Source: Gammaproteobacteria bacterium
GTDB lineage: Bacteria > Pseudomonadota > Gammaproteobacteria > Pseudomonadales > Azotimanducaceae
NCBI GenBank assembly: GCA_026707945.1
Contig: JAPOVV010000041.1
Span: 62,001 to 126,000, forward strand
Direction of reading: 5' to 3'
Length of the DNA stretch: 64,000 bases
Part shown: piece by piece, positions 12,952-58,161 of the stretch
Numbering within the stretch: the stretch's first letter is position 1
Layout of the letters: each line of letters opens with the position of its first letter
Notes under the pieces: model-generated
Database searches by the model: none
What the model was told of the DNA's origin: nothing
Seen by the model: the letters and a program-made list of their open reading frames with translations, nothing else
Program-made: the position numbers and the translations under genes

Positions 12952-14352
12952 ATGAGTGATCCTTTACATAACGAATTTGCGCCGGACTCCATTGAAGCAA
13001 GATCGCTTCGTTATTTGATCAATCCGAACTCGAACCTTGCTGATGTAAAGAGACGGGGTCCCAATGTACACGTTAGGGCGGAAGGCGTATATCTGTGGGA
13101 CAATCAAGGTAAGCAATACATTGAAGGACTTGCGGGGCTTTGGTGCACGGCGTTGGGTTATGGCGTAAAGGAACTCGGCGAAGTCGCAAAACAGCAGATC
13201 GAGAAACTTGCGTATTCCCAACTCTTCACTGGGATCACAAACGAACCTAGCGTGCAGTTGGCGGAAATGTTGATGAACACGGTCCCAATTGATGCTGGAC
13301 GTGTGTTTTTTGGTCTTTCAGGCTCGGATGCTAACGACACGCAGGTAAAGCTGCAGTGGCATTACTCCAATTTGATCGGGCGACCGGAACGAAAGAAGAT
13401 CATTTCCCGATGGAATGCGTATCACGGCGTTACCGTGGTAAGCGGGAGTTTGACTGGCTTACCCCCATTCCATAAGAACTTCGATTTACCGATTGATCGA
13501 GTTAAGCACACCAATTCACCGTTTTACTATCACGAAGCGAACGAGGGCGAAACGGAAGACGAATTTACGACGCGATTAGCAAACAATCTCGAAGATCTCA
13601 TCGATGAGGAAGGACCTGAAACTGTTGCAGCTTTCATTGCAGAACCCATTCTTGGTGCGGGTGGTGTGATCGTTCCCCCTGATGGCTACTACGAGAAGAT
13701 TCAGCGCGTCTTAACCAAATACCACATTCACTTCATTGCTGATGAAGTAATTAATGGGTTCGGAAGGACTGGCAATCCGTTCGGGTGTCAGACCATGGGT
13801 ATCGATCCGACAACCATCAGCGTCGCTAAAGCACTCTCAAGCGCATACCTCCCGATCAGTGCCGTGATCATTCCCGAATTCATGTACGACGTTTTCGAGA
13901 CCGCAACAGAAGAGTCGAAGATGTTCGGTCATGGATTTACCTATTCAGGGCACCCTGTTTCGGCGGCAGTCGCGGTGCGCAATCTCGAACTCATGGAAGA
14001 GCGTGGTATCTACGACCACGTTCGAAAGATAGCCCCTGTTTTTCAGGAGCGCTTGCGCAGTTTCGAGAACCACCCACTTGTCGGAAATGTTCGCGGGGAA
14101 GGCTTGTTAGGGGCGATCGAGTTGGTCAAGAACAAAGAAACGCGTGAGTCCTTCGATGCTAAACATGCAGTTGGTGTACATTGCATGGATCGGTGTCGTT
14201 CACACGGGCTAATCTCACGTGCAGTTGCGGGTGATTCCTTGGCATTCTGTCCGCCGTTGATCATTACTGTTGATCAGATCGACGAGATGTTTTCGAAGTT
14301 CGAGAAAGCCTTAGAAGACACACTAAAGTACGTAAGCGCGCTAGACGACTAA
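12952..14352 (+). CDS. Class III (omega) aminotransferase
   Basis: 466 residues, PLP fold type I. The N-terminal WDNQGKQYIEGLAGLWC is typical of omega-amino acid:pyruvate and putrescine-type enzymes. Others are FFGLSGSDANDTQVKL, RWNAYHGVTV, AEPILGAGGVIVPP, DEVINGFGRTG (Asp binding the pyridine N) and the PLP lysine in SVAKALSS, with FGHGFTYSGHPVSAAVA at the dimer interface. It moves an amino group from a terminal amine or beta-amino acid to pyruvate or a related acceptor. Together with the SDR it may convert amines to aldehydes or alcohols. Donor unknown. Confidence 0.9.
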   Translation: MSDPLHNEFAPDSIEARSLRYLINPNSNLADVKRRGPNVHVRAEGVYLWDNQGKQYIEGLAGLWCTALGYGVKELGEVAKQQIEKLAYSQLFTGITNEPSVQLAEMLMNTVPIDAGRVFFGLSGSDANDTQVKLQWHYSNLIGRPERKKIISRWNAYHGVTVVSGSLTGLPPFHKNFDLPIDRVKHTNSPFYYHEANEGETEDEFTTRLANNLEDLIDEEGPETVAAFIAEPILGAGGVIVPPDGYYEKIQRVLTKYHIHFIADEVINGFGRTGNPFGCQTMGIDPTTISVAKALSSAYLPISAVIIPEFMYDVFETATEESKMFGHGFTYSGHPVSAAVAVRNLELMEERGIYDHVRKIAPVFQERLRSFENHPLVGNVRGEGLLGAIELVKNKETRESFDAKHAVGVHCMDRCRSHGLISRAVAGDSLAFCPPLIITVDQIDEMFSKFEKALEDTLKYVSALDD

Positions 14353-14558
14353 TACATTTTCCGCGAGAGGCTCAACTTTTCAGATAGTTTGCTTTGCGCC
14401 TTAGTCAACTATCAGGACGAATTTTTCGATCGTGCGATCGTTCCACGAACGCAGAAGTCGGCAAACCGGAGCTCATGGCGTGATTGATGTCCCTACATCG
14501 GGATCGGCGATCGACCTATTGGTGCTTATTACCTCTTGGTGCCGAGCCAAGCAGTCGT

Positions 14559-15689
14559 TTAGACGTCGATGCCAACCTTTGTCTCGGCGATCAGTAAATC
14601 TACGACGTTGCGCAGAGATGCTTGCTCGCTCGCGCCATCCAGTTCAGCTAGTTTCATTGTGTCGAACTGTCTGTCGGCGCTCGTACCACGAGCTAGGATG
14701 GACTCGATCAAAGCGAGTTCTGCTTCGCACTCGCAGATTTGAGCACTTGCCTCAAGCGAACTTAGGAGTTCTTCAGCAATTTCACTGACCAGACGTCGAT
14801 TATTTGTTGTTGGATCGGCGAGAAACGCAAGGATCCCATATCGTTGCGCTTGCCAACGATTCTCCTGGATTAACTGTTGACTCTGTTGCCTTGGTAGAGC
14901 GTCTCGTTCATCGAGGGTCTGTAGATGTTGAATCAGACACACGTACAGCGCAGCAAGGGCGACCGCGTCCTCAACGAGGGGACACGTATCACAGATACGA
15001 AGTTCAATCGTTGGATACTTGGCCGACGGTCGTATATCCCACCAAAGTTCGGTACCGTCATTGATGAAGCCAAAGGATTGCATTTCCTCAATGACCTGTA
15101 CATATTCAGACCAGCTGTTCAAATCGGGAGGAACGCCCGTTCGCGGAATCCCGCTGAAATAATTTAGTCGAAACGATCTAAACCCAGTCTGGCGTCCTTC
15201 GACAATCGGTGACGAAGCACTGAGGACACAAAATAGCGGCATGTAGTTCCTAAGCGTCGACATGACGCGAATACGTTGATCTTCGTCGCCGAAGCTGACA
15301 TGAATGTGCATTCCGGAAACCAACAAACGACGAACTGCATCTTGCATTCGCATTTCGAATTCTTCGTACCGCTGCTTCGGTGTAGCCGATTGCTGTTGCC
15401 ATTTGGCGAACGGGTGCATGGAAGCCGCGATCACTGCCGCGTCATGGTCATGAGCGGCGTTTAACACGATACGACGCGTCTCGTGCAGCGCGTCGCGAAG
15501 CTCACGTATCGATGTACAAACCTTCGTATTGGTTTCGATTTGTGAATTTAAGAATTCATGCACGATCCTGTGTGGTCCGGCATTCCGTTCACACGCCTCG
15601 AAGATTGCTTCAGCCGGTTGCGAGATCAGGTCCCGCGTAGCAGGATCGACCAAGAAAAACTCTTCTTCGACGCCAATCGTGAATTTCAT
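14559..15689 (-). CDS. ybdK: Carboxylate-amine ligase, YbdK / glutamate-cysteine ligase type 2 family
   Basis: 376 residues. The opening GVEEEFFLVDP is the GCS2 family signature, followed by QIETNTKVC, GMHIHVSFGD (metal/ATP-binding His), the SSPIVEGRQTGFRSFR segment, WWDIRPSAKYPTIELRICD, and the closing ENRWQAQRYG. YbdK proteins have weak gamma-glutamyl-cysteine ligase activity, and the true substrate pair is generally unsettled. It lies alone, between the aminotransferase (convergent) and a serine hydrolase on the same strand. The 206-bp gap to the aminotransferase shows nothing clear. Confidence 0.9.
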   Translation of the reverse strand: MKFTIGVEEEFFLVDPATRDLISQPAEAIFEACERNAGPHRIVHEFLNSQIETNTKVCTSIRELRDALHETRRIVLNAAHDHDAAVIAASMHPFAKWQQQSATPKQRYEEFEMRMQDAVRRLLVSGMHIHVSFGDEDQRIRVMSTLRNYMPLFCVLSASSPIVEGRQTGFRSFRLNYFSGIPRTGVPPDLNSWSEYVQVIEEMQSFGFINDGTELWWDIRPSAKYPTIELRICDTCPLVEDAVALAALYVCLIQHLQTLDERDALPRQQSQQLIQENRWQAQRYGILAFLADPTTNNRRLVSEIAEELLSSLEASAQICECEAELALIESILARGTSADRQFDTMKLAELDGASEQASLRNVVDLLIAETKVGIDV

Positions 15690-15770
15690 GTAATAAGTCG
15701 TAAACGCTTAGAGGTCATAGGGTTTTGTGAGACGGTTGAACGCCGCGCGCGAAAGCCAGTCCATTGAAAG

Positions 15771-17009
15771 TCAGTCAACAATTGCCTGCCGTACTGCATT
15801 TTCAAAATCGTACTGTGCGCCGCGATGTGGTTGTTGCAACATCAGAACTCCCGTGAGTTCTTCGACAGGATCGGTCCAGGAACGCGTACCGAATGCTCCA
15901 CCCCAACCAAAAGCGCCTGCGCTGCGACGACTGTTTGCGGCGATCGGATCAAGAACAACCGCAACGGTATAACCAAAGCCCTGCCCCAAAGCGTTCTGCG
16001 TGAAACCCCGATATAGGTCGCCGACGTGGTTGCTTGCGAACATCTCTACTGAACGTGACCCGAGTAGACGGTTGCCGAAAAGCTCGCCGCCATTTGCCAG
16101 CATTTGCTCGAAATGAAGATAGTCTCGCGCGGTGCTTGAAAGTCCAAATGAACCAGAGAAGTAGCTGGTCTCACGATCGAAGCGGGACATGTCACGCCCC
16201 TGTATTGCGACGCGTCGATCCGCTTTCGAAGCGGGCACGTTGTAATGCGTGTCCTTCATATCCAATGGGTCGAATATCCGTGTCTGTACGAATTTGTCGT
16301 AGGGTATGCCTGAAACGATTTCAACGATGCGCGCGACAACGTCTAGTCCAGTCCCGCCACTATAGGTCCAACGCGACCCGGGTTGAAAATCCAGCAGACT
16401 GGTACCGAGCGTAGGAATGTAGCTCGCAAGCGACTCGCGTTCGCTTCGTTGAGATTGCATGGACCCCAAACCGCCACTAGCGAGTCCGGATGTATGAGTC
16501 AACAGGTGCTCGATAGTGATCGGTCTCTCGGCTGAAACCAACCGATGCTCAGGTGGGTTTCGTCGGTCGATAAAGAGTGGGCTTATGTCTTCGTCAGCTG
16601 GATCTTTTAAGACAGCCACCTGCATGTCAGCGAACTCAGGAATGTACTCGGATACGGGGTCGTTCGGCCGTATCAAGCCTTCCTCAATCATCATCATCGC
16701 CGCGACGCCCAAGACAGGTTTCGTCGATGACATCATGATGAAGATCGCGTCCTTCGACATTGGAGTTTCTGCTTCGACGTTCATCATGCCATACGCTTTG
16801 AAATGTACGACCTTACCGCGGCGTGCGACAGCAGTCACGGCGCCTTGGATATTTCCAGCTTCGATATGCCGGTGCATGGCGGCGTCGATCCGAAGCAATC
16901 GATCTGATGACATGCCCACCGACTCGGGTTTGGCGATTGGGATCTCTATGGCGAGAGTTGCAACTGCCGCGAGCGTCGATAGGGCAACGAGCCAAATTCG
17001 AATTTGCAT
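15771..17009 (-). CDS. Exported serine hydrolase of the class C beta-lactamase / EstB family
   Basis: About 412 residues from the ATG at 17009. An AGGAG ribosome site 5-6 bases before that ATG would lie inside the longer form starting at 17024, so the shorter start is preferred. A signal peptide (QIRIWLVALSTLAAVATLA) leads to the catalytic SxxK in MSSTKPVLG, a Tyr motif YSGGTG in place of the usual YxN, HTSGLASGG, and a late GGAFGTRSW. These fit periplasmic esterases or D-aminopeptidase-like enzymes rather than a true beta-lactamase. Substrate unknown. Confidence 0.85.
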   Translation of the reverse strand: MQIRIWLVALSTLAAVATLAIEIPIAKPESVGMSSDRLLRIDAAMHRHIEAGNIQGAVTAVARRGKVVHFKAYGMMNVEAETPMSKDAIFIMMSSTKPVLGVAAMMMIEEGLIRPNDPVSEYIPEFADMQVAVLKDPADEDISPLFIDRRNPPEHRLVSAERPITIEHLLTHTSGLASGGLGSMQSQRSERESLASYIPTLGTSLLDFQPGSRWTYSGGTGLDVVARIVEIVSGIPYDKFVQTRIFDPLDMKDTHYNVPASKADRRVAIQGRDMSRFDRETSYFSGSFGLSSTARDYLHFEQMLANGGELFGNRLLGSRSVEMFASNHVGDLYRGFTQNALGQGFGYTVAVVLDPIAANSRRSAGAFGWGGAFGTRSWTDPVEELTGVLMLQQPHRGAQYDFENAVRQAIVD

Positions 17010-30441: not shown

Positions 30442-33054
30442 ATGCACCGTTTCCGAGTCCTTCTATTTATTGGTGCATTTTTGTGCAATCCAATCCTCGC
30501 CGAGGACGAACCGGAATGCGCGTCGAGCGTAGCTCGCATCACGAAGAACTACCCGACAGCAAACTTCGACACTTGTGAAGTTCTGGATGAGAACTCCTTC
30601 GTACTTTCGATCGTGCCAGAAGATGAACCGATCAATCCAAGTCCTTGGTATGGATTTGCAGTCGAACGGTTGTCCGATGTTAACTCGAATGTCAAGGTCT
30701 CTCTGCGTTATAGAAACACTACTCATCGATATTCACCGAAGTTCAGTTCTAACAAACGCGATTGGGTTCGCTTAGATCGTCAGCTTGTGGAAAGCGCCGA
30801 TGGATCGAGTGTGGCATTTGAGATTCCGAAGGGGAACCGGCGCGTGTACGTGTCCGCGCAACCGATCATCGATGAAGCGATGTATGAGACTTGGGTCTCA
30901 ACCCTTCTGGATATTTATCCGTTCTTAACGCGAGAAACACTCGGCCACTCAGTAGCGAAGCGTCCGATCGAATCGTTTGCGCTGAATACCGAGGCCTTAC
31001 GGGTCATCGTTCTTCTCGGTCGACAACACCCGCCTGAAGTCTCGGGTTCGATGGCTTTTATGGCATTCGCTGAGAAGTTACTCGAACTCTACGTCGATGC
31101 GCATGAAGATCAAAACGTGCGAGTCGTTGAGTTTTTCCGCCAGCACATGATTGTGTTCGTACCCCTACTCAATCCTGATGGCGTACAAGAGGGATATTGG
31201 CGTCATAACCTGCGAGGTACGGATCTAAACCGCGACTGGTTCGAGCAAGCGCAACCGGAAACACAGTCAGTAATCCGCTATCTGGCGAACTTAAAAAATC
31301 AAGGGAAAGAGGTCGTCCTTCACATTGATTTTCATTCAACTCGACGCGATGTTCTCTATACCCAAATGCCAAACGACAAAACAACACCTGCTAAATTTGC
31401 GTCGGATTGGTTGGCCTTTGTGCAAAACCGTGGTCGCGCACAAATACCAGAACATGCACCTCGACCGTTGACAGATCAAGGCACAGCGAAGGGGTACTTT
31501 TTCAAGACTTACGCCGTCCCCTCAATCACCTATGAAGTTGGAGATGAATCGAAGCCTAATGACGTGAGACTGACCGCGGCTGAATTTGCGCTCGGGATGG
31601 CTTCGATTTATGGCGAATTGGTTTTGGATCCTGCTCAGGTCGACTCAGAAACCTGTGATACGTTGTTTTGCTTGATGGTGAACGCCAATGGCGCATCATT
31701 GCTTGTCCTGGAAGCGCAGGGATTGATCAATTCTGACTTAGCTGCGAAACTAGCGCGTGCGCAGATTGCGTACAAAAGGGCAGCTGAGCAACAAGGTTGG
31801 CCATCTGGACAGAACTACCTGATCTTCGAGGAGGCAATGATCGAGAAGTTGGGTCCGGAAGGCTCCAACGTGCATATCGGCCGATCTCGACAAGATTTAC
31901 ACGGCATTGCACGGCGAATGCTTGTGCGACTTAAGACACTCGAGTACTACGAGTCGCTCCTTGAAGCTCGTACGGCATTACTTGAAGCGGCGTCACGTCA
32001 TAGCGATGTGGTCATTCCTGCTTACACCCATGGCGTGCCGTCCCAGCCAACGACCTATGCTCACTTATTGCTCGCGTTTGATGCTGCGTTTTCTAGAGAT
32101 ATAAAGCGATTGCAGAACGCGATAGAACGGCTAAATTTAAGTCAACTCGGCGTCGCCGCAGGATCTGGTTCTAGTTTCAATCTAGATAGGGAGCGACTCG
32201 GATCGTGGCTTGGCTTCAAAGGTATTGTCGCGAATACATACGATGCAAATTTCTTATCGACGGCTGACTATAAGCTTGAAATCTCAGCGGTGATGTCGCA
32301 AAGCATTGCGACGATCTCGAAATTCCTTGCCAACGTACACGCGCAACAACGCAATCCGCGCCCGTGGATCTATTTGAGCGATGATTTGGTCAGTGGCAGT
32401 AGCATCATGCCGCAGAAGCGTAATCCTCGTGAACTCGATCGTATCCGCACGCTTGTAGCGCAGGTTATCGGCGGAACGAATGCGTTGCAAATGATGAACC
32501 ACAACGTCGACACCGGAATGCACGACTATCGAACGGTTGCCCCGTTAATAGAAACAATGGATCTCGCGGAATCTGTGAATCTGCGCTTCGCGTTGCTGCT
32601 TGACGGCATTCATGTCGATGACGAAGTCGCAATGACTGAGTTATTGGATGGATTTTCGACCTCAACTGAAATCGCGGAGACACTCTATCGAGAAGCACGT
32701 GTTCCATTCCGAACGGCTCACGAGTACGCGAAGAAGGTCGTGGAATATGCTCGTGATACCGAACAGCTTTTGACCAATGTAGCAAGTAACGAGTTAGAGC
32801 GAATTTATCAAGATGTTGTAGGCGAAGATCTACCCGTCCCAGTCGAGGCAATTGAGAACGCAATCGATCCGCGACTTTTCATCGAAATGAGGGATATCAG
32901 TGGCGGTCCATCAGAAAAAGCGATAAGCGCTGCCATCGGTGAACAAAGGCGATCTTTGGCTATAGATGAACAGTGGCTGAGGGTGCGTCGCGCACATCTT
33001 AGATACGTCGAGGATCGGCTAAACTCACAGCTCAGAAACTTGTCTGCCCGATAA
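30442..33054 (+). CDS. Exported fusion of M14 zinc carboxypeptidase and argininosuccinate-lyase-superfamily domain
   Basis: 870 residues in one unbroken frame. Signal peptide 1-20. Residues ~25-140 resemble the beta-rich domain preceding CCP/Nna1-type M14 peptidases. M14 domain ~145-395: zinc ligands His196 and Glu199 (HPPE) and His298 (DFHS), substrate-carboxylate site Asn263-Arg264 (DLNRDW), general base Glu365 (ITYEVGDE). Lyase domain ~405-870 keeps the three superfamily signatures: HIGRSRQD (479-485), AYTHGVPSQP (527-536) with His530, and GSSIMPQKRNP (652-662) with the catalytic-loop Ser653/654. ASL-family lyases split N-C bonds to release fumarate and are normally cytoplasmic. Here the whole chain carries an export signal. 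A canonical argH is present separately at 42431-43834. A TonB receptor follows by 123 bp. Confidence 0.88.
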   Translation: MHRFRVLLFIGAFLCNPILAEDEPECASSVARITKNYPTANFDTCEVLDENSFVLSIVPEDEPINPSPWYGFAVERLSDVNSNVKVSLRYRNTTHRYSPKFSSNKRDWVRLDRQLVESADGSSVAFEIPKGNRRVYVSAQPIIDEAMYETWVSTLLDIYPFLTRETLGHSVAKRPIESFALNTEALRVIVLLGRQHPPEVSGSMAFMAFAEKLLELYVDAHEDQNVRVVEFFRQHMIVFVPLLNPDGVQEGYWRHNLRGTDLNRDWFEQAQPETQSVIRYLANLKNQGKEVVLHIDFHSTRRDVLYTQMPNDKTTPAKFASDWLAFVQNRGRAQIPEHAPRPLTDQGTAKGYFFKTYAVPSITYEVGDESKPNDVRLTAAEFALGMASIYGELVLDPAQVDSETCDTLFCLMVNANGASLLVLEAQGLINSDLAAKLARAQIAYKRAAEQQGWPSGQNYLIFEEAMIEKLGPEGSNVHIGRSRQDLHGIARRMLVRLKTLEYYESLLEARTALLEAASRHSDVVIPAYTHGVPSQPTTYAHLLLAFDAAFSRDIKRLQNAIERLNLSQLGVAAGSGSSFNLDRERLGSWLGFKGIVANTYDANFLSTADYKLEISAVMSQSIATISKFLANVHAQQRNPRPWIYLSDDLVSGSSIMPQKRNPRELDRIRTLVAQVIGGTNALQMMNHNVDTGMHDYRTVAPLIETMDLAESVNLRFALLLDGIHVDDEVAMTELLDGFSTSTEIAETLYREARVPFRTAHEYAKKVVEYARDTEQLLTNVASNELERIYQDVVGEDLPVPVEAIENAIDPRLFIEMRDISGGPSEKAISAAIGEQRRSLAIDEQWLRVRRAHLRYVEDRLNSQLRNLSAR

Positions 33055-33177: not shown

Positions 33178-36168
33178 ATGCGCTACCGGTACATCTCACA
33201 AACGATCGTATCGCTGACATCAATCGCGGTACTACTAGCTCCTAATCTAGCTGCTCAGGAGCAGGAGGACGAGGATGACACTGAAGTCATCGAGGAGGTA
33301 GTCGTCACGGGAACGCAGATTCGTGGCGCCGATGTCTCAGGACTTCTACCTGTTACGGTGATCGATGCATCAGACGTTGATGCAATGGGTGTCAGTTCGG
33401 GAGATGAATTACTAGAGATGCTCCCTGAACAAGGGCAAAACTTCTTCAACGAAGAAGAGAACATCAGCGGCGGTGTGAATTCAGCACGGGGCGACATGGG
33501 TGCGTTCAACTTACGCAATTTAGGCACCGGCAACACTCTGGTTTTACTAAATGGTCGTCGCATGGTCAACGCCGCAGCCTTTCAAACTGAGGCGATCGGA
33601 GGGAGTTTTGTACCGGTTAACACCGTGAACTCAAACACGCTACCTGTATTCGGTATCGAAAGAGTCGAGCTCTTAAAAGACGGCGCATCTGCAATCTATG
33701 GGGCGGATGCTGTTGCTGGCGTGGTTAACACCGTACTGAAGAATGACATCGAAGGATTCCGCATCAAATCGCGTATTGATTCCTATGAAGTTGCCGGACG
33801 TACCTCTTTCGCCGCGAATGTTGAATGGGGTCGATTCTTCAATGATGGCGCGACCAATATCGGCGTCATGCTCGATTTCTTCACGCGAGATCGAGTGCAC
33901 TCCTCGGAAGACGAAAAATGGGCTGATGCGGACTATAGACGACTCGTGCCAGATGATTCACCATGGAGTGGTGATGTTCGCTTTCGAAATACGAGTTTGA
34001 ACGGTCTCTTTGGTCAATTTGATTCGGTAAGTAGTGTTTCAAGACTGGACATTAGAGGTCCCGTTACGGACAGCTCTGGCGAGTTCGAGGTGTTCCCGGC
34101 TGGTCATTCAAAGTGTGCTTATACGCTAAGTGTTCATACGTGTGGGGCGCCGGACGGACAAGGATTAGAGCGGTACAACTTAAACGAATTTCGCGATGTT
34201 TCCTCCGAGCTAATGCGTAACAACGCACTCGTATTTGTGAATCACGATTTTTCAGAGACCACGCAATCCTACACAGAATTGCTGTACTACATGTCCGAAT
34301 CGCATATGAATCGGCATCCGTCGGCGTCGTTCAGCGCCGTAAGGTTGCGTGTGGGCGCTGAAAACTATTACAACCCACTCGGTCCGTGTGGCTCGCCACA
34401 TCGTCTACCCGACGAATTAGTTGGGCAAGATCTACCGTGCAGTGGATTAGAGCTGCAGATCGATAACTATCGATTCGCGGAATTGCCGCGTTCTGTGAGC
34501 AATGACGGTTCTGTCTTCCGTGTAGTACAAGGACTTCGAGGGGTGCGAAACGATTGGGATTGGGACACCGCCGTCGTATGGTCTATCGCAAGAAAATTCG
34601 ATCTTACTGGAAATCGCGTATCGAATCTTCTGATGGTAGAAGCCTTGAACGATCCGACACCCGAAGCTTACAACCCATTCAGCGGTGGCGTCGACAGCAA
34701 CATTGAACGTGCGCTCATTGATGTCTTTCGTGACAACGACGCTGGGTTATTCTTATGGGATCTAAAGTTCTCGAATCCCTCCGTTGCTGAGCTACCTGCG
34801 GGACCGATGGGAGCATTGATCGGGTATGAACACCGCCGCGAGTGGTTTAGAGACGACAGGGACCCCAGGCTTGACGGCACGATTCCATTCACTGACTTTG
34901 ACGATGATACGTTCCCCTTTGTTTCGGATGTAGTTAATAGCAGTCCAACGCCAGACAACAGTGGTTCACGTCGCGTCGACTCCTTGTTCGCCGAACTTGC
35001 CATACCCGTGGCGACGAATATCGAAGCCCAGGCGGCATTGCGATTTGAGAATTTCTCGGACGTGGATAGTGCAGTCGTAGGAAAGTTAGCGGCAGGATGG
35101 CAAATCGCGGACCCGATTTCGCTTCGCGCGTCGTGGTCGGAATCCTTCCGCGTACCGAACCTAGTGACTGTCAACGAAGAAATTGTTGCGCGTCAGAACA
35201 CAAGAACTGACTACACCTGTGTTTATGCGGCCAATCAGGGGGGAGATCCGGACCAGGATATCGTTGACTGCGTAAACTCAGTTCAACGGACGGCACAAGG
35301 CAGCGATGAGCTCGTCGCGGAACGATCTGACAATATTTCGGTTGGACTAGTTTTCGACATATTGGACTCACTGACGATCACAACCGACTACTGGTCGATC
35401 GTTAAGGAAGATACCATCGGTTTATTTGGGGAATCAAACCATACGGTACTTGATCTCGTCTATCGCATTCAACATGGTGGCTCAAACTGTGAGGCATTGG
35501 TCACCAACCCCGCGGTTGTGCGCGACGCGATAACAGCAGCGGACGAAATTGGTGTTTATGAAGCGGCTGGTATTTGCCCCGCCGGACAAGCAATTCGAGT
35601 GGATGACCGCTATGCGAATCTGGATACTCGGACTCTTCAGGGATTTGACCTTGGTATTTACTGGGAAGCTGACACGGATTTCGGTGAATTCAGTGTCCGC
35701 TATCTAGCGTCTTTCTTGGAAAAATTCGATCAGGAAGCTGGCGGCGACGCGGCGACTTTAATTGAAGCGAGAGATTCTGGATTGTTACCGGGCAACATAC
35801 CCGTTGTCGGTTTTGACGATCTGGTACAGCGAGATGGGAATCAGAAATACAAAGGAACACTGCTTGCGAAATGGCGTAAAGATCCGTGGGGAGGTGCTAT
35901 ATCACAGAGGACGATCGGGAAGGTCTACCAGAACTCACTGACGTTAGAAGATGGTACGCGATACTGGCTTGATGCGATGACTACCTGGAATCTTCGCGTC
36001 GATTACCGATTCAAGATCGAAGATACACCGACTCGATTGCGCTTCGGAGTCGTCAACTTGCTTAACGAACGTGCACCATTGGCTGATCGTTATTTCGGTT
36101 ATATGTCTGACGTTCATCGCGACTTCGGTCGCTATTACTACGCAGACGTCATGTTCACACTAGACTAG
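33178..36168 (+). CDS. TonB-dependent outer-membrane receptor
   Basis: 996 residues: signal peptide (1-26), acidic linker, TonB-box region EEVVVTGTQIRG (about 39-50), plug domain with LRNLGTGNTLVLLNGRRMV and VELLKDGASAIYGADAVAGVVN, then a long barrel ending RYYYADVMFTLD with terminal aromatic/hydrophobic residues. This plug style (LGTGNTLVLLNGRR, GASAIYGADAVAGVVN) is the large Oar/CirA-like class common in marine gammaproteobacteria, which imports peptides, glycans or complexed metals. It is placed right after the exported M14-lyase fusion and 6 bp before a ClpP-like peptidase gene, suggesting uptake linked to peptide processing. The substrate is not shown by sequence. Confidence 0.92.
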   Translation: MRYRYISQTIVSLTSIAVLLAPNLAAQEQEDEDDTEVIEEVVVTGTQIRGADVSGLLPVTVIDASDVDAMGVSSGDELLEMLPEQGQNFFNEEENISGGVNSARGDMGAFNLRNLGTGNTLVLLNGRRMVNAAAFQTEAIGGSFVPVNTVNSNTLPVFGIERVELLKDGASAIYGADAVAGVVNTVLKNDIEGFRIKSRIDSYEVAGRTSFAANVEWGRFFNDGATNIGVMLDFFTRDRVHSSEDEKWADADYRRLVPDDSPWSGDVRFRNTSLNGLFGQFDSVSSVSRLDIRGPVTDSSGEFEVFPAGHSKCAYTLSVHTCGAPDGQGLERYNLNEFRDVSSELMRNNALVFVNHDFSETTQSYTELLYYMSESHMNRHPSASFSAVRLRVGAENYYNPLGPCGSPHRLPDELVGQDLPCSGLELQIDNYRFAELPRSVSNDGSVFRVVQGLRGVRNDWDWDTAVVWSIARKFDLTGNRVSNLLMVEALNDPTPEAYNPFSGGVDSNIERALIDVFRDNDAGLFLWDLKFSNPSVAELPAGPMGALIGYEHRREWFRDDRDPRLDGTIPFTDFDDDTFPFVSDVVNSSPTPDNSGSRRVDSLFAELAIPVATNIEAQAALRFENFSDVDSAVVGKLAAGWQIADPISLRASWSESFRVPNLVTVNEEIVARQNTRTDYTCVYAANQGGDPDQDIVDCVNSVQRTAQGSDELVAERSDNISVGLVFDILDSLTITTDYWSIVKEDTIGLFGESNHTVLDLVYRIQHGGSNCEALVTNPAVVRDAITAADEIGVYEAAGICPAGQAIRVDDRYANLDTRTLQGFDLGIYWEADTDFGEFSVRYLASFLEKFDQEAGGDAATLIEARDSGLLPGNIPVVGFDDLVQRDGNQKYKGTLLAKWRKDPWGGAISQRTIGKVYQNSLTLEDGTRYWLDAMTTWNLRVDYRFKIEDTPTRLRFGVVNLLNERAPLADRYFGYMSDVHRDFGRYYYADVMFTLD

Positions 36169-36174: not shown

Positions 36175-36807
36175 ATGAAACGAGACAGTAAGGGTTTGCC
36201 CTTGGCACATATGAAGCGATATGGACTAGAAGAGGAAGGCGAAGCAGCAGACGAGCGAAAAACGCCAGGAGTCAATATTCACAAAATCCTCTTCGACCAT
36301 CGTACATTGACACTCTTTGGTGAAATTGACTCAGCCTGTGCACAGGAGACCGCAGAAGATCTGCTTGCACTAGCCTATGAAAATGACGATCCGATCACCA
36401 TGTTTCTTGGATCACCGGGCGGTCACGTTGAGTCGGGAGATACCGTATTTGACGTCATTCAGTTCATCAAACCGCCGGTGCGCATTGTTGGGACTGGATG
36501 GGTAGGTAGCATCGCTACGCATATCTATCTAGCGGCTGAAAGGGAGAATCGGCTTTGTTTACCGAATACCAGGTTCTTGATTCATCAACCCTCCGCGGGA
36601 TTTGGCGGTGACGCAGTCGACATTGAAATCCATGCTCGTGAAATCGTCAAGACGCGTGAACGAATTAACGGCATCATTGCAGATAGAACTGGACAGCCGA
36701 TCGAACGCGTTGAGCAAGACACGGATCGTGATTACTGGATGAGTGCAGAGGAATCACTTGATTACGGTTTAGTTGGCAAGATCATCAACTCTGTCGACGA
36801 TATTTAG
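36175..36807 (+). CDS. ClpP-like serine peptidase
   Basis: 210 residues with the ClpP fold and a complete putative triad: Ser112 in GWVGSIATHIYLAA, His137 in FLIHQPSAG, Asp186 in DTDRDYWMSAEES. LFGEID and FLGSPGGHVESGD are the N-terminal strand and glycine-rich loop. The Ser motif lacks the usual GQAAS form, marking a divergent paralogue. The N-terminal ~35 residues are charged and unlike ClpP, with no signal peptide, so it should act in the cytoplasm. ClpX/A partner use is unknown. It begins 6 bp after the receptor stop, and a hydrolase follows by 9 bp, so the three look like an operon. Confidence 0.87.
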   Translation: MKRDSKGLPLAHMKRYGLEEEGEAADERKTPGVNIHKILFDHRTLTLFGEIDSACAQETAEDLLALAYENDDPITMFLGSPGGHVESGDTVFDVIQFIKPPVRIVGTGWVGSIATHIYLAAERENRLCLPNTRFLIHQPSAGFGGDAVDIEIHAREIVKTRERINGIIADRTGQPIERVEQDTDRDYWMSAEESLDYGLVGKIINSVDDI

Positions 36808-42430: not shown

Positions 42431-43834
42431 CTAGGCTTCCTCAGAATGAGACTGAGCGACCAGTCGAGCTCGGGCGGCGTTAATCGCTTCGGCAACCACT
42501 TCAGGTGCGGTTCCACCAGGGTGGTTTCTGGCGGCTACTGATCCTTCTAACGTTAGACAGTCAAAGACCGAATCCTCAAATGAATCGCACAGGTCTTTGA
42601 GTTCGGCTAATTCCAGTTCGTGTAGTTCGACATTGCGCTGATTTGCGAGGGATACGGCTTTTCCGCAGATCTCGTGCGCCGAACGAAACGCAATGCCGTG
42701 ACGAACCAGCCAATCGGCCATGTCCGTCGCAGTTGGGTGTCCTTGTGAAGCGAGTTCAAGCATACGGCTCGGATTCGGAGATATGCCTGATACCAAAAGC
42801 GCCATTGCATTGACACACTGAAGTGTTGTGTCCAACGCATCGAACACTGCCTCTTTATCTTCTTGGTTATCGCGGTTGTACGCGAGTGGTTGTCCTTTCA
42901 TGAGCATAAGTAACCCATTAAGGTGACCAATCACGCGACCGCTTTTGCCACGAATAAGCTCCGCTACATCGGGATTCTTCTTTTGTGGCATGATGCTAGA
43001 GCCAGTGCACAGTTCGTCTGGTAGCGAAATGAAGCCGAACGCAGGTGACATCCAAAGAATCACTTCTTCGCAACAACGAGAGAGGTGCATCATGAGCGTG
43101 CTGAGTACAGCGACGAATTCGATTGCGTAATCTCGATCACTTACGGTATCCAGTGAGTTGCGCGTGATGGAATGGAAACCCATGGCGGTCTGGAACACAC
43201 GTCTATCGATAGGATAGCTGGTGCCAGCCAACGCGGCACTACCCATTGGCGAAGAGTTTGTGCGACCATGCCAGTCAGCCAATCTCGCCAAATCGCGGTC
43301 GAACATTTCAAACCATGCCATCAGATGGTGGCCGAACGTAATGGGCTGTGCATTCTGTAGGTGCGTAAATCCAGGCATGATGGTGTGCGTATGGGCGTCC
43401 GCTTTGTCCAACAAACCTTCCTGCAAAGTAAGCAGCGCATCTCGAAGTTCGTCGCCACTTTCTAATAGGAATAGCTTGAAAGCGCTAGATACCTGATCGT
43501 TACGCGAACGAGCCGTGTGTAACTTTTGGCCTGGTTCGCCGATCATTTCGATGAGCCTTGCTTCGATATTCATATGAACGTCTTCAAGTGACTGATCCCA
43601 TAGAAAGTCACCGGATTGAATGTCCTCGATGATCTTGTCTAAACCATCGACAATTTCTTCGTATTCCGTCTGACTCAGAATGTCAGCTGTTAGTAGGGTC
43701 TTAGCATGCGCTTGGGAACAGCGAGCGTCGACCTCGGCCAATCGTGAATCGAAATGAACCGATGCGGTAAAAGATTCGACGAACTCGTTGGTGGTGCCTT
43801 TAAACCTGCCACCCCAGAGTTTCTTTGTCGTCAT
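42431..43834 (-). CDS. argH: Argininosuccinate lyase
   Basis: 467 residues from the ATG at 43834 (MTTKKLWGGRF). A longer form starting at 43906 adds 24 residues not seen in the family. Last step of arginine synthesis: argininosuccinate to arginine and fumarate. All family signatures are present: LWGGRF, HTARSRNDQ, GFTHLQNAQPITFGHH and GSSIMPQKKNPDVAEL. It is divergent from hemC across 122 bp, the same arrangement as in Pseudomonas. It serves as the canonical comparison for the exported lyase domain at 30442-33054. Confidence 0.97.
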   Translation of the reverse strand: MTTKKLWGGRFKGTTNEFVESFTASVHFDSRLAEVDARCSQAHAKTLLTADILSQTEYEEIVDGLDKIIEDIQSGDFLWDQSLEDVHMNIEARLIEMIGEPGQKLHTARSRNDQVSSAFKLFLLESGDELRDALLTLQEGLLDKADAHTHTIMPGFTHLQNAQPITFGHHLMAWFEMFDRDLARLADWHGRTNSSPMGSAALAGTSYPIDRRVFQTAMGFHSITRNSLDTVSDRDYAIEFVAVLSTLMMHLSRCCEEVILWMSPAFGFISLPDELCTGSSIMPQKKNPDVAELIRGKSGRVIGHLNGLLMLMKGQPLAYNRDNQEDKEAVFDALDTTLQCVNAMALLVSGISPNPSRMLELASQGHPTATDMADWLVRHGIAFRSAHEICGKAVSLANQRNVELHELELAELKDLCDSFEDSVFDCLTLEGSVAARNHPGGTAPEVVAEAINAARARLVAQSHSEEA

Positions 43835-43956
43835 TCGTCTATTGGTAGGTAGTCGCGATGAGATTGGGCGGTAAGTGTAGAGAGGTTTTTCGTAGCCGAA
43901 CACCAATAATTTGAAATTACTTCGTTACTCCACATACTAAATATGGTGTCTAGCCA

Positions 43957-49278: not shown

Positions 49279-50967
49279 ATGACTCATTCCCGATTTGCAG
49301 AGATGCGAATGGTTCTCGCGCACGGTGTTCTCCTCATCTTGTTAGCGGGTGCGACGTTTCCACTGTGTGTGAAAGGTGAAATTGCTTTTCGCGAGGTCGC
49401 TGCTGACGCAGGGGTCGATTTCGTGCACCAAAGTGGTGCGTTAGGGCAACGATGGACTTTGGAAATCACCGGTGCGGGCGTCGGTTTGCTGGACTACGAC
49501 AACGATGGCAAATTGGACATTTGGGTCGTGCAGGGTGGTCCATTGAAGGATCGAACGGGAGACTTACCAACCGATCGCCTCTACCGCAATGTCTCCAAGG
49601 GTTCGGAACTCGAGTTTCAAGACGTGACAGGCTCTGCTGGTCTCGGTGCAGAGACGTACGGTATGGGTGTTGTCACGGGCGACGTTGACAATGATGGCGA
49701 CATGGATGTCATCACGTTGAATTTCGGCAGGAACCAGCTGTTCCTCAATTGGGGCACGCGTTTTAAAAAACGTGTAGATAAAGCGCTTATGAAACCTTCC
49801 GATTGGTCGATCTCCGGCAGCCTCGCGGACTTGAACGGCGACGGTTGGCTCGACTTGTACGTCGCCAATTACATGGAATTTCCGCCACTCGATAAATACA
49901 GGGTGTGCCGACGCCTTTCCACGCGCAAAGGATATTGTGCGCCGAGTAACTTTGATCCCACGCCAGATCAGCTGCTGTTAAACGAAGGGAATGGAGTATT
50001 TCGGGACGTATCGAAAGATTTCGGAATCGAGGGTGCAGCTGAACGGGGTATGGGAGTCGTAATTGACGACCTCAACGGTGACGGTATGCCTGATATTTAC
50101 GTAGCGAACGATATGGCGATGAATTTCCTGTGGTTGAATAGAGGCGGTAGCCAGTTCGTCGACGATGCCCTGCTTAGTGGTGTCGCGGTAAATGGTCATG
50201 GCATGCGAGAAGCGAGCATGGGAGTTTCTGTGGCGGATTGGGATCGGGATTTCGATCCTGACTTATTTTTGACGCACGACCTGAAGGAGAGTAACACGCT
50301 CTATTCATATGAACACGCAGGTTGGTTTTCGGATCAATCTATTCAGTCGGGATTAGCACCAGCAAGCATGTCAAAAACTGGGTTCGGAACGGTGTTCTTC
50401 GACGTAGAGAACGATGGCGACTTAGACGTGTTTATTGCGAACGGGTCGGTCTCGATGATCGATGCGCAGTTGGCGAAACGACTAGAACCACCTTTACGGC
50501 AAACAAATCAATTGTTCATCAACAACGGCACAGGGAAATTCAAAGAGACAGAAGCGACGACACTGAGTCAATTCGAAGAGGTGAGTCGTGGGGCGGCAAT
50601 GGGTGATCTCGACAACGATGGCGATGTCGATCTGGTCGTCTCGAACAACGATGGTCCCGTGCGGATTCATCAGAATGTCTCGACGAATTCCAATGGGATG
50701 ACGAACCACTGGCTCGGCGTGAGATTGTTGACCTTAGGTCGCGACGCAATTGGCGCCGTTGCGTGGCTCAAAGGTGAATCGAGGGAACGTAAAGTCGTGC
50801 GTACGGACGGGAGCTACGCGTCTGCTCACGATCCTCGATTGATTTTCGGCTTGGGTGATAACGCTGCAACACCGACGTTGCAAGTGAAGTGGCCAGATGG
50901 GGTTATTGAGACGTTTCCAGACTTGGCGGTCAATCGCTACCATGTTTTGACTCAATCGTTGCCGTGA
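49279..50967 (+). CDS. CRTAC1-like FG-GAP/ASPIC-UnbV surface protein, pair A
   Basis: 562 residues with a signal peptide (hydrophobic core VLAHGVLLILLAGATFPLC). FG-GAP/VCBS repeats recur with DYDNDGKLD, DVDNDGDMD, DLNGDGWLD, DVENDGDLD and DLDNDGDVD, calcium-binding loops of an integrin-type beta-propeller. The C-terminal ASPIC/UnbV domain has VVRTDGSYASAHDPRLIFGLG and WPDGVIETF. The family includes vertebrate CRTAC1 and bacterial exported proteins of unsettled role. Its stop overlaps the GTG of a TPR gene (GTGA). Clear paralogues lie at 54791 and 58967. Confidence 0.92.
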   Translation: MTHSRFAEMRMVLAHGVLLILLAGATFPLCVKGEIAFREVAADAGVDFVHQSGALGQRWTLEITGAGVGLLDYDNDGKLDIWVVQGGPLKDRTGDLPTDRLYRNVSKGSELEFQDVTGSAGLGAETYGMGVVTGDVDNDGDMDVITLNFGRNQLFLNWGTRFKKRVDKALMKPSDWSISGSLADLNGDGWLDLYVANYMEFPPLDKYRVCRRLSTRKGYCAPSNFDPTPDQLLLNEGNGVFRDVSKDFGIEGAAERGMGVVIDDLNGDGMPDIYVANDMAMNFLWLNRGGSQFVDDALLSGVAVNGHGMREASMGVSVADWDRDFDPDLFLTHDLKESNTLYSYEHAGWFSDQSIQSGLAPASMSKTGFGTVFFDVENDGDLDVFIANGSVSMIDAQLAKRLEPPLRQTNQLFINNGTGKFKETEATTLSQFEEVSRGAAMGDLDNDGDVDLVVSNNDGPVRIHQNVSTNSNGMTNHWLGVRLLTLGRDAIGAVAWLKGESRERKVVRTDGSYASAHDPRLIFGLGDNAATPTLQVKWPDGVIETFPDLAVNRYHVLTQSLP

Positions 50968-52052
50968 CTTACCGATGCGTGGGCGCGAGGCGCTTTTTCA
51001 CCGCGTTTTTCATTGTGTTAGCGACGACCCAATCCGCGAATGAGATTTTTCTTGAAGGCATAGAAGAACCGCTCGCTACTGTTGCGAGTGCGGCATACGA
51101 AGCGGCACTTAGTAGCGACATCAATTTGAATCCTGAGCTTGTCGCTAACAGATGGGGTGAGTTAGGCATGTTGCTTCAAGCTCATAACTTGCACGAACAG
51201 GCAATCGCAGCGTATTCGAACGCTCTGACGGTAGTTTCGGATCCCCGATGGCTTTATCTTCGAAGTATCGCTTATGGTGAATTAGGTCTCCTGCAAGAAT
51301 CGATCGACGATCTCATATCGGTGACGCGTTCGATGCGCGAGGTTGCGATTATTTGGTATCGATTGGGTCAAGCTTTGTTGAATGCTGGGAGGGTTTCTGA
51401 TGCCAAAGAAGCGCTGACCAACGCGTTGGCTTTAGACAAGGATTTGGCTGCAGCCCACATGTCGCTAGCCGATGCGCAAATACTTGATGCCGATTACGCT
51501 AAAGCCAAGGAGTCGTTACAACAAGCGTACGAACTCCAACCACAAGCCGGTCAGATCGCATACCGGTTGGCTTTGGTCGAACGTGAACTAGGCGACTTGC
51601 GTTCAAGTCAGCTATGGTTGGAAAAGCGAGTTAATCAGTTTGCCCCCGTTGTTGAAGATCCGATGCTGGTCCTGGTAGCGCAATACAGCACGAATCCGAC
51701 GTTTTTCATATCCGCCGCTCGACGGGCGTGGGAACGAGGCGATCGTGAAACAGCGTTGGAAGCGTACCGTCAGGCCATTGCGCTTGAACCGGAAAATGTT
51801 GAGAACTTAATCGGCTACACGCAGTTGCTCATCGCGCTAAATCGTTACGATGAAGCGTCAAAGACACTCGATGCGATTGGCGATATTTCGTCCGATGGAG
51901 GCATGTTCTGGTATCTTCGTGCAGTTACCTATTTAGAGAAGGACTTAGTCCTTGCAGCGCAGGACGCGATAAACAAAGCGCTAGCCATAGATCCCACTCC
52001 GAAAGCATTGGCTCTGGAACGTGAAATTAAAGAATTACGAAAGTACGACTGA
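50964..52052 (+). CDS. Secreted TPR protein, partner of CRTAC1-like protein A
   Basis: 362 residues from the GTG at 50964, overlapping the previous stop by 4 bp. Signal peptide ARRFFTAFFIVLATTQSANE. At least six TPR-like units, such as NRWGELGMLLQAHNLHEQAIAAYSNAL (key LLQAHNLHEQAIAAYSNAL) and WYRLGQALLNAGRVSDAKEAL. A non-TPR insert with DPMLVLVAQ and the next RAWERGDRETALEAYRQA recur in the TPR partners at 56430 and 60661, so these are paralogues. It likely binds its neighbour or a shared ligand in the periplasm. Confidence 0.88.
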   Translation: MTYRCVGARRFFTAFFIVLATTQSANEIFLEGIEEPLATVASAAYEAALSSDINLNPELVANRWGELGMLLQAHNLHEQAIAAYSNALTVVSDPRWLYLRSIAYGELGLLQESIDDLISVTRSMREVAIIWYRLGQALLNAGRVSDAKEALTNALALDKDLAAAHMSLADAQILDADYAKAKESLQQAYELQPQAGQIAYRLALVERELGDLRSSQLWLEKRVNQFAPVVEDPMLVLVAQYSTNPTFFISAARRAWERGDRETALEAYRQAIALEPENVENLIGYTQLLIALNRYDEASKTLDAIGDISSDGGMFWYLRAVTYLEKDLVLAAQDAINKALAIDPTPKALALEREIKELRKYD

Positions 52053-52093
52053 AAAAAGACGAAAATTAAGGCATTAATAGGCGGCAAAGGCGC

Positions 52094-52121
52094 TTGACAA
52101 GTCTGCTTGCGAGCGTATTGC
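52094..52121 (+). promoter_or_regulatory. Candidate sigma-70 promoter
   Basis: TTGACA (52094-52099) and TATTGC (52116-52121) are 16 bases apart in the 169-bp gap before the first Sel1-like gene. The -35 is perfect; the -10 is weak. Confidence 0.35.
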
Positions 52122-52221
52122 GGAAGGAGATCTGGTTAACTACACCTCCTAGCTAGCAGCTGATTGGAAGCAGCTCGACTGTTAGACGATTGGCGTTAAT
52201 CGTGACACCTTAACCTAAAAT

Positions 52222-52959
52222 TTGCGTAGAAGGAAGAAACCAAGCGTACGCCTTTATTGTGCAATTGATGTGATAGAGACCAATCAATTGCGGAGACTTT
52301 CTCCGTTGCTCGTCGTACTAGCACTCTCATCAAACGGAATTGCGACTGCACAGGACGAAGGAATCACCGAAGAGACGATCGCGGCGAGAACCGATCGAGA
52401 GTACCAGATTGAGGAAGAACTGATCGTCCAAGGTACGCCGGATCGGATAAAAAGCCCTAATCAGATACTTCGGGGATACGACGCACGAAACATGGGTGGT
52501 TATTACTACAAGCTGCGCATGTACGAGAAAGCGTATCCCTATCTAGTAGAAGCGGCACAGGAAGGCTTCAAAATGTCGCAGGCTAGGTTAGGCTATATCT
52601 ACCAGAAAGGTCTTGGTGGTGTTGAGCGCGACTGGGTTAAAGCAGTAGGCTGGTTGGGTGTTGCGGCGTCGCCGAGTTCCGATCCTGAAATCATGAACTA
52701 TTGGAAGAACCTGAGGGCGAAGATTCCGGAACAGAACTTGCCGATGATCCAAGACATCATTGAAGAATATGTGTCGAAATATGGCAGCAAAGCGACGGGT
52801 GTCACTTGTGACATTAATCGTGCTGCCGGGACGCATATCGCTCGCATGCGTTGTCTCTACGACGACGAGATCGAGTATCGTGACCCAGCTGATACGTTGG
52901 GTATCCCTCAGGTCGAAATTGACACTAGCGTTGGTGGTGGCGGTTCGGCACCGTTCTAG
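52222..52959 (+). CDS. Secreted Sel1-like protein with TonB-box-like motif, copy 1
   Basis: Up to 245 residues. The frame opens with TTG at 52222; GTG at 52270 would put the signal peptide (LRRLSPLLVVLALSSNGIATAQ) closer to the N-terminus, so the start is uncertain. After the signal comes IEEELIVQG (63-71), resembling the TonB-box region of TonB receptors. Sel1-like repeats: YEKAYPYLVEAAQEGFKMSQARLGYIYQKG (key SQARLGYIYQKGLGG) and AVGWLGVAA. The C-terminal domain has Cys pair VTCDINRAAGTHIARMRC and ends in a Gly-rich tail. First of three tandem paralogues with the genes at 53041 and 53848. Confidence 0.72.
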   Translation: MRRRKKPSVRLYCAIDVIETNQLRRLSPLLVVLALSSNGIATAQDEGITEETIAARTDREYQIEEELIVQGTPDRIKSPNQILRGYDARNMGGYYYKLRMYEKAYPYLVEAAQEGFKMSQARLGYIYQKGLGGVERDWVKAVGWLGVAASPSSDPEIMNYWKNLRAKIPEQNLPMIQDIIEEYVSKYGSKATGVTCDINRAAGTHIARMRCLYDDEIEYRDPADTLGIPQVEIDTSVGGGGSAPF

Positions 52960-53040
52960 TGTTCGTCTGAATTACAACGAGGTATTGCGCACAACTGCGA
53001 AAGGACTCGTTCGAACCAATTCAAATGAGGTAACTCATCA

Positions 53041-53775
53041 ATGATCGAATTGAAACAATCGACAATGCAAGTGATCTTGATCTGCATTGGAGTCGCCTTT
53101 GCACCGATGACTTTAGCAGTTGGTGAAGAAATCGTCGTGATCGGCGAAGCCTCAGAAGGTCCTGGTCCACTCGAAATGGTTGAGATCATGAACGCCCATG
53201 TGACGGCTGGTCAGCTTTACCGTAAGAAAAAATACGCAGAGGCGTTAGAGTATCTGGAAATAGCTGCAAAAGGGGGCATGAAACGTTCTCAAGCGCAGCT
53301 AGGCGCGATTTTGCTCGGAATGACCGGGACGGACGAAGTACCACGGGATACTAAACGTGGCGTTGGTTGGCTTGGGGTTGCCGCATACGGTAGTACGGAA
53401 CCCGCATATCGAAAATCTTATGAGGACGTTTACAACGCGATAACACCTGCACAGCATCCGATGATTGACAAGATAGTGGACGGTTACATCGAGAAATACG
53501 GACCGGAGGCTACCAAAGTATCGTGCGAACAAACACGTCGCGCAGGTACCAGAATGTCGAGGTTAGTCTGCACTTTCGATGACTTGCACAAGTATCGTGA
53601 TCAATTAGATGCAGAAACGTTCGGTGCACTAAGTGCTGACGGACAGATTACCGACTATGCCGAAAACTATCGAAGTGGCGGCTTTGGTGGTACCGGCGGC
53701 GGTGGCGGTGGTGGCATCGGCGGTGGTGGCGGACCAGGCGGCGGTGGTGGCGGCGGCGGACCGCGCGGTTTCTAA
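53041..53775 (+). CDS. Secreted Sel1-like protein with TonB-box-like motif and poly-Gly tail, copy 2
   Basis: 244 residues. Signal peptide (STMQVILICIGVAFAPMTLA), then GEEIVVIGEASEG (28-40), TonB-box-like. Sel1 units: YRKKKYAEALEYLEIAAKGG and SQAQLGAILLG, then GVGWLGVAAYG. The C-terminal pair is VSCEQTRRAGTRMSRLVC. The last ~35 residues are almost all Gly (codons GGT/GGC, 53687-53768), ending PRGF. Such tails are flexible and can mediate surface contacts or spacing. Paralogue of the genes on either side, on the same strand, 81 bp after copy 1. Confidence 0.78.
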   Translation: MIELKQSTMQVILICIGVAFAPMTLAVGEEIVVIGEASEGPGPLEMVEIMNAHVTAGQLYRKKKYAEALEYLEIAAKGGMKRSQAQLGAILLGMTGTDEVPRDTKRGVGWLGVAAYGSTEPAYRKSYEDVYNAITPAQHPMIDKIVDGYIEKYGPEATKVSCEQTRRAGTRMSRLVCTFDDLHKYRDQLDAETFGALSADGQITDYAENYRSGGFGGTGGGGGGGIGGGGGPGGGGGGGGPRGF

Positions 53776-53847
53776 CCAGGACGTACGTCTTCGCTAGGTC
53801 GCTCAATCCGGTGATAAGATTCCGTTATTGGCTGATGGTGTACTGAC

Positions 53848-54603: not shown

Positions 54604-54636
54604 CGCAGCTTAAAAACACGACGCAACGTCTAACAG

Positions 54637-54702
54637 AAAATCCCGCATTCTGTATCAATGTAGTAGTCCATCTGCATGGACTACGACCCGAGCGGGAGTT
54701 TT
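54637..54702 (+). terminator. Nested-stem terminator after the Sel1-like genes
   Basis: An outer stem AAAATCCCGC (54637-54646) pairs with GCGGGA(G)TTTT (54692-54702), giving a U-tract on the + transcript. Inside it, GTAGTCCAT (54663-54671) and ATGGACTAC (54676-54684) form a perfect 9-bp stem with loop CTGC. It ends the three-gene Sel1-like run. Confidence 0.7.
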
Positions 54703-54790
54703 CTCGTTTCGAATGCCTGCCATTGAAGCGTGTGCAGGAAATGAGGGGGAATAAGGGCTTCAGCGAACGATGTGGAAATTGAAATAGGCA

Positions 54791-56425: not shown

Positions 56426-56429
56426 AACG

Positions 56430-57980: not shown

Positions 57981-58130
57981 CTGAGTATTCCTAACGAGAA
58001 CTAAATACTCACGATTCGACGGTATCGCAGACGACTTTACATAGCGTACCGCATTCGGATCTGGAATCGCCAGTTTTAAATCGCTAACGTCTAGGTTAAG
58101 ACTTACAGCGATTCTCACGATTGAAATATT

Positions 58131-58148: not shown

Positions 58149-58161
58149 CATCAAGGACATC

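Follow-up and report, generated by a model that had tools for sequence, protein, structure and literature searches.

What would a bacterium do with a carboxypeptidase joined to a lyase whose superfamily we know, to our knowledge, only as cytoplasmic enzymes, when the joined protein begins with what looks like an export signal? The question is raised by a gene at 30442-33054 (+) of a 64,000-nucleotide stretch (hereafter, the window) from a gammaproteobacterium of the family Azotimanducaceae (GCA_026707945.1, contig JAPOVV010000041.1, positions 62,001 to 126,000). A preliminary description of this DNA had suggested that an M14 carboxypeptidase domain and an argininosuccinate-lyase (ASL)-type domain perform two coupled steps on one exported substrate. 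Our analysis shows that the fusion is conserved throughout its genus and adjoins a TonB-dependent receptor gene in every locus compared. We propose that it encodes an exported, periplasmic bifunctional scavenging enzyme, which would first remove an acidic residue from a conjugate that has been taken up and then release fumarate; judged from sequence, we hold the case for and against this proposal to be evenly balanced.

The open reading frame (ORF) starts with ATG and encodes a single chain of 870 residues, and both its sequence and its Pfam matches confirm one frame with a signal-peptide-like N-terminus, a complete M14 domain and a complete lyase domain. Residues 1-20 (30442-30501, +) form a predicted Sec-type signal peptide, MHRFRVLLFIGAFLCNPILA|E, read by eye and from its recurrence in relatives: hydrophobic, signal-peptide-like N-termini were judged present in 13 of 14 fusions (of the fourteenth, L071, eight residues were seen). 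The M14 unit comprises an N-terminal beta domain (residues 26-140; 30517-30861, +), recognized from a family-profile alignment and the beta strands of a structural model, and a catalytic domain (residues 145-390; 30874-31611, +), where Pfam Peptidase_M14 matches residues 149-306 at 61 bits (cut-off 21.6) and AstE_AspA_cat overlaps it at residues 234-369 (32.7 bits, cut-off 25). The ASL-superfamily domain (residues 408-870; 31663-33051, +) matches Lyase_1 at residues 472-677 (117.2 bits, cut-off 27) and ASL_C2 at residues 738-796 (40.3 bits, cut-off 27.3), and its sequence matches in the PDB are argininosuccinate lyases and ethylenediaminedisuccinate (EDDS) lyase. An AlphaFold model of the 870-residue chain has a mean pLDDT of 81.2 and a pTM of 0.79; a structure search with it returns EDDS lyase first (6rx8, E 5.5e-20), and the other half finds 3l2n, an enzyme resembling cytosolic carboxypeptidases (CCP-like).

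An assembly join can be ruled out. The fusion is free of internal stops in all 18 genomes of the genus, at 37-75% identity (in one, G1150, it is cut at the contig end and begins at query residue 85), and in 20 of 206 genomes of the family, the other two belonging to another genus (G723 and G687), each assembled as one contig. A sample of 293 genomes of the order gave seven matches at 1e-60, four from this genus (the window's included) with the fusion and three from other families with the M14 half only, and all five matches beyond the window's own in a class sample of 369 genomes (1e-48) were M14-only. The fusion also occurs in two named assemblies, both metagenome bins of gammaproteobacteria: SB0677_bin_6 (L075) and COS3_bin_7 (L074, whose contig is also that of genome G791). 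Mobile spread was considered and rejected: none of 279 matching plasmid records covers 80% of the full protein, and among viral contigs (phage records were not searched) five stretches matched a pattern with none confirmed as a relative of the full protein.

Both halves are under purifying selection. Of eight pairs compared, two were saturated; in the remaining six, the ratio of nonsynonymous to synonymous divergence (dN/dS) ranges over 0.056-0.112 in the M14 half and 0.047-0.115 in the lyase half. The dS lies at 1.7-2.5 in three of these six, and the other three, low in dS, all derive from one set of three sequences. Compared with each other, the L070 and L072 genes have a dS of 0.23 in the M14 half and 0.58 in the lyase half, the order being reversed for L070/L071 and L071/L072, which hints at recombination inside the fusion gene. 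Searches of open-licence literature listed no description of the fusion, of an exported lyase of this kind or of the locus, which is not proof of absence. Each half belongs to a known family; what is new to us is their pairing, together with the export-type N-terminus that marks the lyase clade and the locus with its receptor.

The M14 half looks like a working metallocarboxypeptidase. The zinc ligands His196, Glu199 and His298 and the base Glu365 lie where the preliminary description had placed them and, like Asn263, Arg264 and Arg254, are invariant in 53 of 53 M14 rows (two duplicate loci were removed beforehand). The half has the HxxE plus His zinc site, the catalytic Glu and the Asn-Arg pair of the M14 family, and activity is predicted from these residues. 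Its family profile aligns over both domains to bacterial CCP-like M14 enzymes (M14D; 3l2n, 4a37, 4b6z, 3k2k), which share the N-terminal beta and M14 catalytic domains. The fusion differs from them in its export-type N-terminus, which by eye speaks against a cytosolic location, in having Lys350 in place of Cys or Ser, and in its TonB-dependent-receptor locus. Lys350, also invariant in the 53 rows, stands 15 residues ahead of Glu365, an offset that we take to correspond to position 255 of carboxypeptidase A. In the branch of carboxypeptidases A, B and O (CPA/B/O), a basic residue at this position predicts cleavage of acidic C-termini, according to PMC9925722. By analogy, the invariant Lys350 hints at acidic C-termini as the M14 substrate. 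On the M14 tree, two unfused g412 genes (G704, G789) nest inside the fused clade, so that the fused label changes twice; no lyase remnant was detected within 1.6 kb downstream of either, and the lyase was apparently lost, as far as sequence can tell. M14 matches in G739 and G767 were inspected to 1.5 kb only.

The lyase half is likewise intact, and belongs to a branch of its own. The three superfamily signatures noted earlier are all present, as HIGRSRQD (residues 478-485), PAYTHG...QP (from 526) and GSSIMPQKRNP (652-662), the first containing SRQD, in all 14 aligned fusions, rather than the SRND of argininosuccinate lyase and EDDS lyase. In a tree of 43 lyases, 28 rows (the 14 fusions and 14 stand-alone lyases) form one clade with support of 100/99, within which the fusions form a single group (92/87). 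This clade, with RS[R/S]QD in place of RSRND, lies apart from argH and from the RSRND lyases. Two rows (EXP_L058 and EXP_L158) are long branches, and L049, ARGH by its source name, groups with second-tier lyases rather than with argH. Read by eye, the N-termini are signal-peptide-like in 14 of 14 stand-alone clade members and in none of the 14 other lyases examined; because the hydropathy values of the two groups overlap, this judgement rests on position, charge and A-x-A-like ends, and for L016 and L017 the annotated start falls downstream of the signal-peptide-like stretch. The earlier statement that ASL-family lyases act in the cytoplasm is therefore too narrow.

The tree's stand-alone lyases of this clade were found on plasmids or megaplasmids (Paracoccus, Agrobacterium, Caballeronia, Cupriavidus, Pseudoroseomonas and a Comamonadaceae bacterium), in genome G660 and in further sampled genomes. 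At 1e-60, 14 of 72,556 plasmid records match one of the clade's stand-alone lyases, and in a phylum sample 4 of 398 genomes, besides the window's own, score at least 508 bits. Export-type lyases thus occur in several lineages, the fusion being one branch among them. One exported-type lyase with RSRQD (L175, 9145-12293) stands in between the fusion and plasmid types; it directly follows a homospermidine-synthase-like gene, with an ornithine-decarboxylase-like gene further upstream (both by eye).

What might such a lyase act on? Among the closest known systems is the EDDS lyase of Chelativorans sp. BNC1 (PDB 6g3d, 6rx8), which has the same fold and catalytic Ser loop, and fumarate chemistry is expected; EDDS lyase is a stand-alone, cytoplasmic enzyme and the fusion is not stand-alone. 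The residues that we follow in the lyase domain are Ser482-Arg483-Gln484, Thr529-His530, Ser653, Lys659, Asn661, Arg663 and Met693. Ser653, the presumed catalytic Ser, is Ser in 21 of 21 alignment rows. Six EDDS-lyase residues lie 4-6 A from the substrate (R112, N113, Q159, N288, D290 and Y320; PMC12363623). In the alignment of the PDB match these correspond to Arg483, Gln484, His530, Asn661, Arg663 and Met693: only R112 and N288 are kept, the others reading N113Q, Q159H, D290R and Y320M. With four of six substrate-side positions changed, EDDS itself is an unlikely substrate, and the analogy drawn in the preliminary description stands for the fold and the best structural match while failing at these positions. 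All 15 fusion-type rows (the 14 fusions and L058) have Arg at position 663, the five aligned plasmid lyases have Gly and argH has Asp; a positive residue where EDDS lyase has Asp suggests, from sequence, that the leaving-group side may carry an acidic partner.

The constant partner of the fusion is a TonB-dependent receptor gene at 33178-36168 (+), 123 bp downstream, with Pfam Plug and beta-barrel domains. In all 14 loci examined the receptor gene is next to the fusion; in 13 it lies downstream in the same orientation, and in one (L056) it is divergent. Intergenic gaps are 33-632 bp apart from four pairs that overlap when longest-ORF starts are used; locus ORFs were called by script, with overlapping frames chosen by conservation and starts set at the first possible codon, so gene overlaps are uncertain. 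A ClpP-type protease gene (36175-36807, +; Pfam CLP_protease) directly follows the window's receptor, and its cluster (c45) also has members after the receptor in L009, L010 and L067. The same receptor family lies within 2.4 kb of stand-alone M14 genes from the protein search in 13 of 16 loci, the others being L053, L059 and L060 (an 11-kb contig). In G660, a stand-alone exported-type lyase of the fusions' clade occupies the place that M14 has in other receptor loci, together with D-amino-acid dehydrogenase (DadA), LysR, the receptor and two frames of the gamma-glutamyltransferase (GGT) type.

To place these loci in context, the named records were scanned with the receptor alignment, and genes of at least 150 aa were examined in the best 80 of 558 loci. 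These include SAR86, Alteromonas and relatives, Woeseiaceae, sphingomonads and Caulobacter, the receptors of the last two being only 32-39% identical. Some loci are repeats of one contig (L073 and L074; L012 and L085), and the M14 cluster's 56 loci include such duplicates as well as the lyase-only gene of L058, so we rely on the 80-locus counts and on explicit lists instead. Comparing genes within three of the receptor with genes further away in the same loci (429 and 522 genes), the near/far counts are 26/0 for DctA-type symporters, 22/0 for DASS symporters, 25/0 for GGT, 24/2 for M14, 13/0 for LysR, 14/0 for DctB, 10/0 for M20 and 6/1 for DadA; they are descriptive, carry no significance test and are not independent, since the families were picked for recurring in these loci, many of which are related. 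For GGT, DctA, DASS, DadA, Amidohydro_3 and M20 the family name was verified on a single representative; LysR, DctB, DctD and dipeptidase were named by eye. Within three genes of the receptor, 47 of the 80 loci have a DctA or DASS symporter, 49 at least one of the listed enzymes and 31 both. In Alteromonas sediminis U0105 (L079), the receptor, a DASS symporter and a stand-alone M14 share a single locus. M14 and GGT occur together within that distance in none of the 80 but do so in L014, L054 and L061. At L014, a CapA-like protein (13783-15891; by eye) comes after M14, a LysA-like decarboxylase and GGT, and its sole NCBIfam match, the model of the lasso-peptide Trp epimerase MslH, is far below cut-off (61.5 of 700 bits).

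A fusion adjoining a receptor may point to a nutrient that is imported and broken down by two successive cleavages on the outer side of the cell membrane. Starting from what was observed (one open frame with intact active sites, conservation under purifying selection, an export-type lyase clade and receptor linkage), we infer export, an order of steps, a chemical class of substrate and import of the products. An acidic conjugate would cross the outer membrane into the periplasm through the downstream receptor. The M14 domain would remove a C-terminal acidic residue (Glu or Asp), and the lyase domain would then split an N- or S-(1,2-dicarboxyethyl) bond by beta-elimination, yielding fumarate together with either an amine or a thiol. 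Uptake of the fumarate and of the released acidic residue could then go through DctA- or DASS-type symporters; the window's own genome has two SDF symporters and one DASS symporter elsewhere. Of the preliminary description, the idea of two catalytic activities on one exported protein is supported by the residues, the N-termini, purifying selection and genus-wide presence, albeit all at the level of prediction. The idea of two coupled steps on one substrate gains indirect support, in that the stand-alone M14 genes and the G660 lyase each occur in one type of locus, with LysR, D-amino-acid dehydrogenase and the same receptor.

More broadly, and with greater hesitation, we suggest that a periplasmic branch of the ASL superfamily may degrade environmental acidic peptides bearing N- or S-(1,2-dicarboxyethyl) groups, fused here to an acidic-specific carboxypeptidase and fed by its own TonB-dependent receptor; we think this wider claim somewhat more apt to fail than to hold. 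If true, it would amount to a route for scavenging fumarate from a metabolite with no description as a nutrient so far. Export signals in a lyase clade that has one branch joined to a carboxypeptidase and linked to an outer-membrane receptor would mean that bacteria encounter succino-conjugates outside the cell so regularly that a dedicated enzyme is worth keeping. The chemistry lends itself to direct testing, fumarate release being a handle for finding the compound, and the proposal hints at a function for a receptor family to which we found none assigned.

Several observations weigh against the scavenging proposal, in addition to the limits of the dN/dS pairs and the dependence among the near/far counts given above. 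No member of the DctA, DASS or GGT clusters was found in the 14 fusion loci, about five genes either side of the receptor, so the dicarboxylate link is made only through the receptor family. Fifteen of the 80 named loci have neither the listed enzymes nor symporters within three genes (six are contigs of two to four genes), and the near/far counts are less clear for DctD (10/5), Amidohydro_3 (9/2) and membrane dipeptidase (0/6). At L076 (9719-17105), a receptor 63% identical to the window's lies beside RND-type efflux genes (by eye) and not beside M14 or symporters. The stand-alone exported-type lyases share no neighbour across genera in ten plasmid regions (one unannotated) and four genomes, where neighbours from a simple ORF caller are doubtful in GC-rich stretches; two of the Paracoccus regions (L015 and L171) have in common an amidase, an ABC transporter of the branched-chain type and, at a greater distance, a dicarboxylate symporter. 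The Lys350 column is Cys in 3l2n and 4a37 and Ser in 4b6z and 3k2k, so that the acidic-specificity rule is borrowed by inference from the CPA/B/O branch. The position after Ser653, where the SS loop has its second Ser, holds Ser in eight of the fusions and Thr in the remaining six. Finally, the active-site loops of the lyase (481-484, 567-580, 595-607 and 689-693) have pLDDT below 50 in the one-chain model. In this superfamily each active site draws on three of the four chains of a tetramer, and the fused protein would thus be a lyase core bearing four M14 domains; loops of low confidence in a single-chain model fit such multi-chain sites and prove nothing.

The alternative that survives best is that each domain, active and exported, has a substrate of its own, the fusion serving only to co-express and co-localize two scavenging enzymes of one receptor locus. 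We consider it unlikely, though a serious contender. The domains can evidently occur apart: G660 has the lyase alone, with no M14 match at 1e-40, M14 stands alone in many loci, and the two g412 genes nested in the fused clade have no lyase. Retention of the fusion in every genome of the genus, at the divergence given above, suggests instead a benefit of coupling, which does not prove a shared substrate.

Another alternative concerns the substrate, which might be a thiol peptide carrying a succino group, for instance S-(1,2-dicarboxyethyl)glutathione or an S-(2-succino)cysteine peptide, with GGT and the carboxypeptidase trimming it before the lyase removes fumarate. GGT recurs among the neighbours of this receptor family, and in G660 it comes after the receptor. 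There is also an enzyme precedent in 2SL, of lyase class I, which acts on S-succino compounds including N-acetyl-2-succinocysteine and yields fumarate from a scavenged or damaged metabolite (PMC9706529). The paper reports 2SL activity on small thiols and none on glutathione, and the term "signal peptide" is absent from its text. Lys350, moreover, hints at removal of an acidic residue rather than glycine, and no sulfur-metabolism gene was recognized among the 60 most recurrent clusters listed (mostly read by eye). On balance the thiol-peptide route seems improbable to us.

Still less probable is a lyase domain that serves the M14 enzyme as a catalytically dead scaffold or oligomerization domain. 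Crystallin-like recruitment of the lyase fold is known, and both the apparent loss of the lyase in two g412 genomes and the Thr that takes second place in the SS loop of six among the 14 fusions would suit it. All 14 fusions, however, keep the Ser, Lys and Asn of the catalytic loop and the Thr of the YTHG motif, residues that we presume to be catalytic, and dN/dS is as low in the lyase half as in the M14 half. Residue retention and dN/dS thus disfavour, at the sequence level, a decaying or decorative lyase. That the protein is a cytoplasmic, diverged argininosuccinate lyase is very improbable indeed: it does match NCBIfam TIGR00838 (argH) at 224 bits and shares the superfamily signatures and ASL_C2 domain with ArgH (PDB 1tj7), but an ArgH paralogue is ruled out by the score below the cut-off of 279.5, the separate tree branch and a true argH in the genome, and the fusion further differs in its signal-peptide-like N-terminus, its fused M14 domain and the Gln for the signature Asn.

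That ordinary argH, the genome's second match to the lyase half, lies outside the system at 42431-43906 (-), scores 588.3 bits to TIGR00838 and is placed between genes read by eye as hemB and hemC; with it present, the fusion is not the arginine-pathway enzyme. Elsewhere in the window, two further TonB-dependent receptors (1716-3917, -, and 5496-7670, -; Pfam Plug and barrel confirmed) have long His/Glu/Asp-rich stretches, whose composition suggests possible uptake of metal of the zinc type. The region 49279-62061 encodes three FG-GAP / UnbV_ASPIC proteins (starting at 49279, 54791 and 58967; Pfam-confirmed), each adjoining a TPR-like protein (by eye). Between them lie three small, similar proteins (52222, 53041 and 53848), one of which was scanned and gave no Pfam match at 1e-6.

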